From Leptotrichia sp. oral taxon 223 (GTDB lineage: Bacteria > Fusobacteriota > Fusobacteriia > Fusobacteriales > Leptotrichiaceae), in assembly GCF_013394795.1 (NCBI RefSeq), contig NZ_JABXYU010000001.1:248001-312000 (forward strand): DNA of 64,000 nt. Reading direction: 5' to 3'. The notes below the pieces were generated by a model. It worked only from the letters and a program-made list of their open reading frames with translations. It did no database searches and was not told the DNA's origin. Below, in pieces: positions 22,180-54,303 of this stretch (the stretch's first letter is position 1; the number at the start of each line of letters is the position of its first letter). Both the position numbers and the translations under genes were made by a program.

Positions 22180-23381
22180 ATGAAAATAAAAGAAAAAATT
22201 AAAATTGGAATAGATAAAATTGGATTCGCAATGCCAAAATATTTTTTAGATATACGGGATTTGGCGATCGGAAGAAATGAGAATGAAAATAAATTTGTGA
22301 AAGGGCTTATGCAAAGTGAAATGAGTATTGCACCTGTTACAGAGGATATTGTATCACTTGGAGCCAGTGCCGCTGAACAGATTTTAGATGAAGAAGACAA
22401 AAAAAATATTGAAATGGTAATCGCCGGGACAGAATCAGGAATTGATCAAAGCAAGGCGTCTGCTGTTTTTATTCATCATTTATTGGATATTCAGCCTTTT
22501 GCACGTTCTGTTGAAATAAAGGAAGCCTGCTACGGCGCTACTGCTGCCCTTAGCTTTGCAAAAAACTATATTGAAAAAAACGAAAACGCCTCCGTTCTCA
22601 TAATTGCTTCAGACATTGCAAAATATGGGATTAACACTCCTGGAGAATCTACACAAGGGGCAGGAAGCATTGCAATGCTAATAAAAAAAGATCCGAAAAT
22701 CGCTGTAATAAACGATGAAAACCTATGTCAAACACGTAATATTATGGACTTCTGGCGTCCAAACTACTCAGATTTCCCAATGGTAGATGGGCATTTTTCA
22801 ACAAGACAGTACCTTGACTGCCTTACAACGACATTCGATGAATATAAAAAAGATACAGTCAAAATTTATCCGATTTTAACGCCTTCTGCTTCCATCTTCC
22901 ATTCCCAAAACTTGGATTAAAGGCAATTAACTCTCTTTTTGAAAAAAATGTGGAAAAGGAAGTTAAAAATATTTTTCTGGAAAAATTTCATACTTCAATA
23001 GTTTATGGAAAACGTGTCGGAAATATTTATACAGGTTCTCTTTATCTGAGTCTGTTATCACTGCTTGAAAACTGTGATAATCTGAAAGCTGGCGACAAGA
23101 TTGGAATGTACAGTTATGGAAGTGGAGCTGTTTGTGAATTTTTTAATCTAAGTCTTGCAGATGGCTTCAAAAATCATTTAAGAAATGACAGGCTAAACGA
23201 TTTTGACAACAGAAAGCAATTATCGATAGAAGAATACGAAGCTATGTTTTTTGAAAAAATAATTTTAGATGAAGAAGGAAATTGTGATTTTTCAAATAGT
23301 AAATTTATTCAGGAAAGTGATAATGCGTTTGTGCTGGAAAAGGTTGAAAACCATAAAAGGATTTACAAAAAAATAAAATAA
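22180..23381 (+). pseudogene. mvaS: Hydroxymethylglutaryl-CoA synthase, frameshifted
   Basis: HMG-CoA synthase makes HMG-CoA from acetoacetyl-CoA in the mevalonate route. The first 246 codons run from ATG 22180 to a stop at 22918-22920 and include the catalytic cysteine in EIKEACYGATAAL. The protein continues in another frame: from about 22863 that frame reads DFNAFCFHLPFPKLGLKA, with the conserved histidine, on to 23381 (MYSYGSGAVCEFF near the end). Adding one A to the A4 run at 22861-22864 restores a single ~400-residue frame, the normal MvaS length. It is therefore a one-base deletion, a sequencing error, or less likely slippage. mvaA lies 700 bases downstream. Confidence 0.88.
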
Positions 23382-23406: not shown

Positions 23407-23997
23407 ATGAATTTAGAAGAACAACGGCAGTTTATTTTATCTGGAAAAGTTTACAATGATTTAACTCCGGAACTTGTAAAAGCTAGAGAAAATACTGTTT
23501 TTTTGACAAACAAATATAATGAAAGTTTTGGAAAGCCATCAGAGGAGCGTGAAGCAATCCTAAAGGAACTTTTGAAATCAATTGGGAAAAATGTGCATTT
23601 TGAGCCAACATTCCGATGTGAATTTGGATTTAATATTTCAATAGGAAATAACTTTTATGCAAATTTTGACTGTATAATGCTTGATGGTGGCGGAATTGAG
23701 ATTGGAAACAATGTACTTTTTGGTCCAAGAGTAGGAATTTACACTTCCAACCATAGTATTGATGCCGAAGAGCGAATAAATGGAGGCTGTTACGCCAAAC
23801 CTGTAAAAATCGGTAATAATGTCTGGATTGGTGCAGGAGTCCACATTAATCAAGGAGTTACAATCGGAAACAATACTATTATCGGCTCTGGAAGCGTTGT
23901 CACAAAGAATATTCCAGATAATGTAATTGCAGCAGGTGTCCCTTGCAAAGTTATCAGAAAAATAACGGAAAAAGACAAAACTGGCTACAAACCTTAA
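23407..23997 (+). CDS. Sugar O-acetyltransferase, maltose/galactoside type
   Basis: A 196-residue acetyl-CoA-dependent hexapeptide-repeat enzyme. The N-terminal cap has EERE-type charged helices; the left-handed beta helix contains the repeats ISIGNNF, IEIGNNVLFGP, VKIGNNVWIG and VTIGNNTIIGSGS. The catalytic histidine is in YTSNHSID, and the ending VIAAGVPCKVIRKI is typical of LacA/Maa proteins. AAAGGAG precedes the ATG. It lies between mvaS and mvaA, but its activity has no evident link to isoprenoid synthesis. Confidence 0.92.
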   Translation: MNLEEQRQFILSGKVYNDLTPELVKARENTVFLTNKYNESFGKPSEEREAILKELLKSIGKNVHFEPTFRCEFGFNISIGNNFYANFDCIMLDGGGIEIGNNVLFGPRVGIYTSNHSIDAEERINGGCYAKPVKIGNNVWIGAGVHINQGVTIGNNTIIGSGSVVTKNIPDNVIAAGVPCKVIRKITEKDKTGYKP

Positions 23998-24091: not shown

Positions 24092-25384
24092 ATGAAAAAA
24101 GAAAATCAGAAAAAATTAAACTGGCTCGGATTTCAAAAAAAGGATCGGCTTGAAAGAATCCAAATGTTAAAAGATAACGGCTTTTTAACTGATGAATTTG
24201 AGAAAATTCTGAAAAAAAATGAGAACTTGCCACTGGAAACTGCAAATCAGATGGCTGAAAACGGGATTGGAACCTTTGCCTTGCCATTTAACATTGCTCC
24301 AAACTTTGTTATTGATGGAAAGGATTATGCTGTGCCAATGGTTACCGAAGAGCCGTCTGTTGTGGCGGGGTGCAGCTATGCAGCTAAAATTATTGGAAAA
24401 TCTGGCGGTTTTACAACAAAAATTTTAGACAGGAAAATGATTGGACAAGTTGCATTGTATGATATTTTGGACTTTGATAATGCGACTTCGATGATTTTGG
24501 AAAATAAAAATGAGATTCTAAGAATTGCAAATGATGCTCATCCTTCCATTGTGGCACGTGGTGGAGGGGCGATTAACATTGAAGTAAAAAATATTGATGA
24601 ATTTTTGATTGTTTATCTGATTGCCGATGTGAAGGAGGCTATGGGTGCAAATATTTTAAATACAATGCTTGAAGCCATAAAAATACCGCTTGAAAATATT
24701 ACAAACGGAAAAAGCCTTATGGCAATTTTATCAAATTATGCAACTGAATCCCTTGTAAAAGCCGAATGCGAAGTAAATGTAAGACTTCTTAGCAGCTCAA
24801 TGGAAACCACTATTGAAACTGCCAAAAAAATTGAGCTTGCAAGTAAATTTGCAAAACTTGACATTTACCGTGCCACAACTCATAATAAAGGGATTTTTAA
24901 CGGAATTGACGCTGTGGTAATCGCTACCGGAAACGACTGGCGCGCAATTGAAGCTGGCGGGAATGCCTTTGCTGTGAAAAATGGCAAATATGAAGGGCTT
25001 ACAACTTGGACTTTTGATGAAAGCACAAATAAATTAAAGGGAGAACTTACCCTTCCAATGCCAATCGCAAGTGTAGGCGGCTCAATAGGGCTAAATCCAA
25101 GCGTAAAAGCTGCATTTAATATTTTAGGAAATCCTGACGCAAGAACTCTGGCAAGCATTGTTACATCAGTAGGACTCGCTCAGAATTTTGCCGCAATAAA
25201 AGCACTTGTTACAACTGGAATACAGCATGGACACATGAAATTACAGGCTCGTTCGTTGGCACTTTTTGCTGGTGCAAAAGGAAAGGAAATTGATATTGCT
25301 GTGGAAAGGCTCTTGGAAAATGGGAAAAGTATTAATTTGGAAAATGTGAAGGAAATTTTGGGAGAAATAAAAAATACAAAATAA
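24092..25384 (+). CDS. mvaA: Hydroxymethylglutaryl-CoA reductase, class II
   Basis: A 430-residue HMG-CoA reductase of the bacterial class II type, interconverting HMG-CoA and mevalonate. Motifs: ENGIGTFALPFNIAPNF with the substrate loop VPMVTEEPSVVAG near residues 75-100, TGNDWRAIEAGGNAFA in the middle, LPMPIASVGGSIGLNPS, and a C-terminal GIQHGHMKLQARSLA with the catalytic histidine. The frame is intact, unlike mvaS upstream. It carries out mevalonate formation if MvaS is functional. Later mevalonate genes (kinases, decarboxylase) are not in the window. Confidence 0.95.
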   Translation: MKKENQKKLNWLGFQKKDRLERIQMLKDNGFLTDEFEKILKKNENLPLETANQMAENGIGTFALPFNIAPNFVIDGKDYAVPMVTEEPSVVAGCSYAAKIIGKSGGFTTKILDRKMIGQVALYDILDFDNATSMILENKNEILRIANDAHPSIVARGGGAINIEVKNIDEFLIVYLIADVKEAMGANILNTMLEAIKIPLENITNGKSLMAILSNYATESLVKAECEVNVRLLSSSMETTIETAKKIELASKFAKLDIYRATTHNKGIFNGIDAVVIATGNDWRAIEAGGNAFAVKNGKYEGLTTWTFDESTNKLKGELTLPMPIASVGGSIGLNPSVKAAFNILGNPDARTLASIVTSVGLAQNFAAIKALVTTGIQHGHMKLQARSLALFAGAKGKEIDIAVERLLENGKSINLENVKEILGEIKNTK

Positions 25385-31661: not shown

Positions 31662-33411
31662 TTATTTTACAATTTTTAAAATATCTTCCACAATTTGCTC
31701 TTTCGTTAATCTATTACTCTTAAACGCCACATCTGGAGCCACTCTATCGGTAAATTCTTTCTTAATACCATAATTTAACACTTTCATATCAGAAGTCCCG
31801 TAGAATCTCGCAATTTTTTCTCCAAATCCACCGTCAATTACACCATCTTCCAATGTAATAACTAATTTGTGTTCTGCTTTTAATTCGTTTAACAATGTTT
31901 CATCAAGCCCTGAGGCATATCTTGGGTTAATTAATGTTGCATTGATTCCATTTTCTTTTAAAAGCTCTTTTACTTCTTTTCCTAATTTGTAAAAGGTACC
32001 TAACCCTAAAATTGCCACGTCTTTTCCTTTTTCAGTAACAAGATATTTATTTAGGTCGCTAAAATCTTTTTGTACGTTCCCTGTATCTTCTGATAATTGA
32101 GACGGCACTCTTATTGCAACTGGGTGTCCTTTGTATTCGATTGACCAGTCTAGCATTGCGAAATATTCTTCTTTGCTTGTTGGAGCTAAAAATACGATGT
32201 TTGGAATATTTGACACTAATGAGATGTCAAACCAGCAATAAATGAGTTACATCGCTCATTCCGCCTAGTCCTCCGCCGAAAATAAGAATGGTAGCTGGAT
32301 TATTATTTATTGCCAAATCTTGTGAAAGCTGATCATAAGTTCTTTGAATAAATGTACTGAAAACTCCGTATATTGGTTTTCCGCCATTTTTAGCCATTCC
32401 AGAAATCATTGCTACAGCCTGTTCCTCTGCAATTCCAACATCAATAAACTGTTTTTCAAATTTTTCTCTTCTATCCTTTGTAAATCCTAAAACAGTTGGT
32501 GTTCCAGAAGTTACTACGGCTACTTCCGGATCTTTTTTCATTTTATCCATCAAAAATTCAGCAGTATCGTTACTTAACCCGCCAGAATAATTTACTTTGC
32601 TTTCTCCCGTTTTTGGATCAAAAGGCATTCCATAGTGCCAAGTTTCCTTATCCTTTTCAGCGTAAGACAGCCCTTTTCCTTTTTGAGTATGCACGTGAAC
32701 GACTATCGGATGGTTAATGTCTTTTACCCTTTCAAAAACTTCTATCAGAGCGTCCAAATCATTTCCTTTATCCACATAAACATAGTCAAGCCCCAACGAT
32801 TTAAAATAATTATTTTGAGCCTGTCCGTTGCTTTCCCTTAATTCTCTTAAATTTTTATAAAGTCCTCCGTGATTTTCAGCAATCGACATATCATTATCAT
32901 TTGCAACAATAATCATATTTGTATCAAGTTCTGCCGCATTATTTAAACCTTCAAAGGCTTCACCGCCACTAAGAGAACCATCCCCAATAATCGCAATTAT
33001 ATTTTCTTTTACACCACGTAAATCTCTCGCTTTAGCAAGTCCAGTAGCCAAGCTCACAGATGTCGAAGTATGCCCTACTTTAAAGAAATCATGCTCACTT
33101 TCATCTTGATTGGTATACCCCGAAACTTCCGAATATCTATCTAAATTCAAAAATCCAAATTTTCTTCCAGTAATAATTTTATGTGGATAACATTGATGCG
33201 AAACATAAAACACAAATTTATCAACAGGCGAATTAAATACCTTGTGCAACGCAATTATTAACTCAACTGCCCCAAAGTCAGGTCCCACATGTCCACCTTT
33301 ATTACTAACTCTGTGAAGCATTGCATCCCTAATATCCTGAGCCAGTACAGCTAACTCTTCTTTATCCAATTTTTTCAAGTCCTCTGGCGAATTTACCTTT
33401 TCTAATGCCAT
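31662..33411 (-). pseudogene. Dxs-like transketolase-family protein, frameshifted
   Basis: The protein starts at ATG 33411 (AGGAGG upstream) and runs 394 codons to a stop at 32229-32227. The family sequence continues one frame over from about 32240 (FDISLVSNIPNIVFLAPTSKEEY) to 31662. Removing one T near 32243-32248 would join them as HLCWFDIS in a ~582-residue protein. The N-terminal part has SNKGGHVGPDFG, the TPP motif GDGSLSGG, and TQKGKGLSYAEKDKETWH. It is shorter than true DXP synthase (about 620), reads YVSHQCYPHK where DVGHQAYPHK is usual, and lacks an insert. It may be the DXS-like subfamily rather than Dxs. Confidence 0.8.
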
Positions 33412-54226: not shown

Positions 54227-54303
54227 TGGTGGGACTGGTGGGGATCGAACCCACAACCTACCGATTAAGAGTCGGTTGCTCTGACCAGTTGAGCTACAGT
54301 CCC
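54227..54303 (-). tRNA. tRNA-Lys (anticodon CTT)
   Basis: A complete 77-base cloverleaf read on the minus strand: acceptor GGGACTG/CAGTCCC, D arm GTAGCTCAACTGGTCAGAGC, anticodon stem ACCGA/TCGGT with loop CTCTTAA (anticodon CTT, codon AAG), T arm with GTTCGATCC, and encoded CCA. It is transcribed alone between its own promoter and terminator. Confidence 0.97.

Follow-up and report, generated by a model that had tools for sequence, protein, structure and literature searches.

Homopolymer deletions are described in PMC12007338, as far as the accessible part of that source goes, as typical gene-fragmenting faults of long-read assemblies. In Streptococcus pneumoniae, for which the mevalonate pathway is the sole route, deletion of the mvaS-mvaA operon was reported to require a supply of mevalonic acid (PMC9363119). 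Among the papers listed on Leptotrichia and mevalonate, the titles and abstract openings contained nothing on the mvaS gene described here.

The source genome of Leptotrichia (G000) was found to contain 2,584,194 bases (2.58 Mb) in 4 contigs with a completeness of 99.26%. The window, i.e. the whole stretch of 64,000 nucleotides that was analysed, corresponded to C1:248001-312000 of this genome and had a G+C content of 31%. Among the best 80 of 487 matches, the closest relative was L. hongkongensis JMUB5056, whose best segment showed 93% protein identity; these 80 contained one Leptotrichia chromosome (that of L. hongkongensis), two Leptotrichiaceae MAG contigs, and otherwise Gemella and Streptococcus. 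At gathering thresholds, the only structured RNA in the whole window was a single tRNA at 54230-54303, with none near mvaS. In the viral collection, 15 matches to the pattern and 0 relatives were found. The features of the window that concern the present analysis were as follows.

22180-22920, plus strand: N-terminal piece of mvaS, 246 aa, out of frame past residue ~224 (TIGR01835 positions 1-218, E 9.3e-93)
22846-22851, plus strand: run of six As, the position of the break in mvaS by alignment with nine congener copies
22848-23381, plus strand: C-terminal part of mvaS, open frame including the presumed catalytic His codon at 22893 (PDB HMG-CoA synthases match 22854-23378)
23407-23997, plus strand: maltose/galactoside O-acetyltransferase-like gene, intact, between mvaS and mvaA (below the NCBIfam equivalog curated cut-offs)
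24092-25384, plus strand: mvaA (HMG-CoA reductase), intact, 430 aa (TIGR00532, 321 bits against a cut-off of 260; PF00368, E 1.9e-105)
31662-32216, minus strand: C-terminal piece of dxs, in the second frame of the same split gene
32227-33411, minus strand: N-terminal piece of dxs (1-deoxy-D-xylulose-5-phosphate synthase), one-base shift near 32238

The mvaS gene at 22180-23381 was found to be split into an N-terminal open reading frame and a C-terminal part in different frames. A six-frame search with TIGR01835 recovered pieces at positions 1-218 (309 bits) and 215-382 (179 bits), which together align over nearly the entire model of 382 positions. No single frame reached the curated cut-off of 360 bits, the best piece scoring 309-311 bits. 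The family match of the split gene far exceeds chance. The GTG open reading frame at 22950-23381 matched positions 254-382 with E 1.3e-40.

The PDB HMG-CoA synthases matched the N-terminal piece as far as residue 224. In this first piece, Glu85 and Cys117 (codon 22528) were found to align with positions 79 and 111 of 1x9e_A, respectively, whereas the His coded at 22893 in the second piece aligned with position 233. We take these Glu, Cys and His residues to be the catalytic residues of HMG-CoA synthase. All three are encoded, but they are distributed over two frames, and the catalytic Cys and His noted in the initial annotation were thus recovered one per piece. The 246-aa product alone should be inactive because it would lack the His coded at 22893. 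The acetyltransferase and mvaA genes were also found to be intact, as had been noted, from their open reading frames and family matches. The DNA match took in the acetyltransferase gene (23407-23997) in 9 of the 12 congeners, the exceptions being G016, G012 and G013.

When the window copy was aligned with those of nine congeners (L002-L009 and L011), the missing base was found to fall in the A-run at 22846-22851. The window contained six As in this run where eight of the nine copies contained seven, the copy L009 containing a C followed by five As, so that the window had one base fewer than each of the nine close congener copies. The C-terminal frame was open from 22848 and read KRYSQNLSDF, the corresponding residues being KRYNQDLSDF in several relatives and KRYSQDLSNF in L003; the two open frames overlapped at 22848-22920. 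The initial annotation had placed a one-base shift in a run of four As at 22861-22864. The split itself was borne out by the two frames, but the gap aligned to 22846-22851, and the alignment puts the proposed A4 site about 15 bases too far downstream because the C-terminal frame opens at 22848 and reads as in the relatives. A shift at the A4 site would also retain the residues D-T-V-K, which were absent from all the relatives' proteins compared. The place given for checking, 22861-22865, is therefore to be replaced by 22846-22851.

The DNA search covered 33 genomes of the family including the source, of which 31 were matched and two (G023 and G025) were without a match. The match in G004 comprised 33 bases only, outside the coding part of mvaS. 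For the remaining 29 relatives, the loci were designated L002-L030, among which L025 and L028 matched in the acetyltransferase part only. In all 27 family loci having both halves, including those of 12 of 12 congeners, mvaS was found to be in one frame, and the length of the A-run was variable, so neither a need for frameshifting nor a slippery run was conserved. The shift at this homopolymer was thus unique to the source genome among the relatives compared, which were congeners and other members of the family, copies of the same species being absent from the set. The compared stretch of L019 contained one stop, whereas its mvaS open reading frame was continuous (390 aa); the stretch presumably extended past the stop codon of mvaS. 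On the minus strand of L012 (genome G012), a single open frame of 826 codons was found to span mvaS and mvaA without an intervening acetyltransferase gene, possibly a natural MvaS-MvaA fusion.

The substitutions specific to the window, where the nine other copies agreed, were counted in the region 22200-23330. Upstream of the break, five were found at codon position 3, two at position 1 and two at position 2; downstream of the break, all five were at position 3. The codon-position bias was retained after the break, which argues against relaxed selection, although a very recent pseudogene would look alike. Since the downstream half has thus remained under coding constraint, the break is either very recent or not real.

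The survey of isoprenoid precursor routes in this genome covered mvaS, mvaA, mevalonate kinase, MvaD, dxs and Dxr. Mevalonate kinase and MvaD were found to be intact and above the cut-off. A second mvaS was not found in the TIGR01835 search of the genome. A third match of that profile, at C1:2010705 (35.6 bits, profile positions 1-138 of 382, in an open frame of 326 aa), was not taken as mvaS and is presumably a FabH-like protein. Dxr was not found in the source genome by a search that detected it in 9 of the 14 control genomes. The DXS encoded here, with no Dxr detected, presumably serves thiamine or pyridoxal synthesis rather than isoprenoids. The mevalonate route is the only path to isoprenoid precursors detected here, and by analogy with S. 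pneumoniae, mvaS would be expected to be essential in Leptotrichia.

One-base shifts elsewhere in the genome were surveyed against sister assemblies over 662 kb of 2.58 Mb, in which 264 genes (274 kb) were comparable with stretches of three congeners. The counts were taken from the largest of four survey versions, with gene ends trimmed, the untrimmed version containing many start-choice artefacts. Clean shifts were picked by eye, and rows were dropped where the shift fell on a trimmed start, where the local similarity was low, where the gap exceeded one base or where a contig ended. In the source genome, 4 of 264 genes were found to contain clean internal one-base shifts, namely mvaS, dxs, dnaE and cysK. 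The sister assemblies contained 0/300 (G014), 2/318 (G015) and 1/93 (G011, a two-base gap), or 3/711 combined; each of these totals is the union of the places matched in any of the references, and hence an approximate gene count. For events chosen by eye in this way, the one-sided Fisher test of 4/264 against 3/711 gave p = 0.09, and against G014 and G015 alone (2/618) p = 0.07, so that by count alone an excess over the sisters is suggestive only.

In G000, one row was dropped (C1:172809). All eight rows of G014 were dropped, two of them being gaps of one base located away from the start of the gene, at C2:98 (contig edge) and at C70:74915 (a short toxin-antitoxin-like open reading frame of which the G000 copy is shorter). 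In G015, five rows were dropped (1234303, 123173, 1603347, 1426862 and 1060559) and two were kept (2220333 and 1099380), row 1234303 being a one-base gap within a locally divergent stretch. The sole row of G011 was kept despite its two-base gap. Retaining the doubtful one-base rows would further weaken the contrast with G000. The control events concerned helicase-like, YdcF-like and V-ATPase subunit E-like genes (named by eye), the last being the G011 gene at C1:825254 (L136), where the two-base gap was found at an A-run; a core-like gene is thus hit in a sister assembly too. A one-base difference between G000 and G014 was observed in G000 from C1 231383 (minus strand, L118), where a 141-aa open reading frame appears, by eye, to consist of an antitoxin start followed by a YafQ-like toxin end.

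The dxs, dnaE and cysK genes each consisted of two pieces in two frames with at least 92% protein identity to a congener. The split dxs gene, named by NCBIfam (NF008968 subfamily), occupied 31662-33411 (minus strand) as a whole. It was a single open reading frame of 582 aa in G014, and G011 and G015 had it unbroken with 67% protein identity; the event was a T-to-TT change and not in a long homopolymer. The dnaE gene, also named by NCBIfam, was broken beside an A-run by a one-base shift at C1:662967 (L156:12323-15879, minus strand), which puts ~215 C-terminal DnaE residues out of frame. It was the only DnaE found in the genome, beside a PolC-like open reading frame of 1477 aa (by eye and a weak family match). 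DnaE is essential in the bacteria studied. A gene whose translation looked cysK-like by eye was split by a one-base shift in a short A-run at C1:1456049 (L164, near 6049). The breaks in dnaE and cysK each rest on one reference genome (G015). Three of the four shifts were deletions at or beside A-runs, in line with the error pattern given for long-read assemblies in PMC12007338.

We therefore favour an uncorrected one-base deletion error at the A-run of the assembly as the explanation of the mvaS break, with a probability of about 0.8, because the genes hit belong to replication, isoprenoid and cysteine metabolism, mvaS is undecayed and most of the shifts lie at or beside A-runs. Among the four possibilities listed by the initial annotation, a homopolymer sequencing error fits best, since three further core genes carry shifts, no decay was found and no alternative route was found; a recent loss is less likely, and phase variation and slippage gained no positive support, because the run contains only six As, its length varies among the relatives and these require no frameshift. 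Against an assembly error stand a shift count not clearly above that of the sister assemblies (p = 0.09) and the 99.26% completeness, by which the assembly is not grossly error-ridden. The frameshift is real in the deposited letters and most likely not in the organism; the assembly would have dropped one A from the run at 22846-22851, and the missing base would be present in the organism. The living cell would carry an intact mvaS and produce a full-length HMG-CoA synthase of ~400 aa, working with MvaA, mevalonate kinase and MvaD in the only isoprenoid precursor route detected. Anyone reading the deposited sequence as biology would wrongly infer that this Leptotrichia depends on mevalonate. 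Core genes of the assembly that carry single-base breaks are flagged as needing comparison with the reads; should the mvaS break prove real, the strain would have to import mevalonate or recode the frame.

The reading that survives best after an assembly error, though unlikely, is a genuine and very recent loss of HMG-CoA synthase, in nature or during laboratory passage, with survival on mevalonate from a rich medium or from neighbours. The split is present in the deposited sequence, S. pneumoniae without mvaS-mvaA offers a possible parallel in that it grows when given mevalonic acid (PMC9363119, portion available), and a very recent event would likewise show no decay. However, mvaA is intact although it would be useless under mevalonate feeding, the break in dnaE is left unexplained, and no mevalonate source is known here.

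It is improbable that the frameshift is real but leaky, with slippage of RNA polymerase or the ribosome on the A-run (AAA AAA G) restoring enough enzyme. A frame change within the overlap at 22848-22920 would join the two open frames, and a comparable situation may be seen in chloroplast atpB, broken in an oligo-A stretch, for which partial recoding is documented in the part of PMC8254509 available. In the same source, however, a tract of eight As (A8) did not suffice for effective transcriptional slippage in atpB, and the mvaS run is shorter; the relatives, with runs of varying length, are read in frame without any recoding. More improbable still is that all four breaks (mvaS, dxs, dnaE and cysK) truly exist in the strain, which would survive through slippage at a low level on A-rich runs, as was proposed for AT-rich endosymbionts (cited in PMC8254509); if true, such genome-wide slippage rescue would mean that a bacterium other than a reduced endosymbiont tolerates frame restoration. 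Phase variation, in which the A-run would switch mvaS on and off, is the least credible reading. In its favour, the run differs by one base from that of 8 of 9 congeners; against it, such runs are commonplace in a window of 31% G+C (263 A/T runs of exactly six), 12 of 12 congeners are in the on state, and off-variants of the only detected isoprenoid route would be expected to die.

The split mvaS may finally be compared with known systems. It resembles bacterial MvaS (TIGR01835; solved chains 3leh, 3v4n, 1x9e and 1tvz) in the alignment of the combined halves with the family model and of Glu85, Cys117 and the later His with 1x9e_A, and differs in being encoded in two frames, with each piece below the family cut-off. 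Chloroplast atpB (PMC8254509) resembles mvaS in that an indel in an A-run affects an important gene; the mvaS run is shorter and no rescue was seen here. In the indel-derived false pseudogenes of long-read bacterial assemblies (PMC12007338), a single-base homopolymer deletion likewise breaks a conserved gene and, as here, further such genes are found in one assembly; the density found here, 4 of 264 genes, is far below that of the worst draft there.
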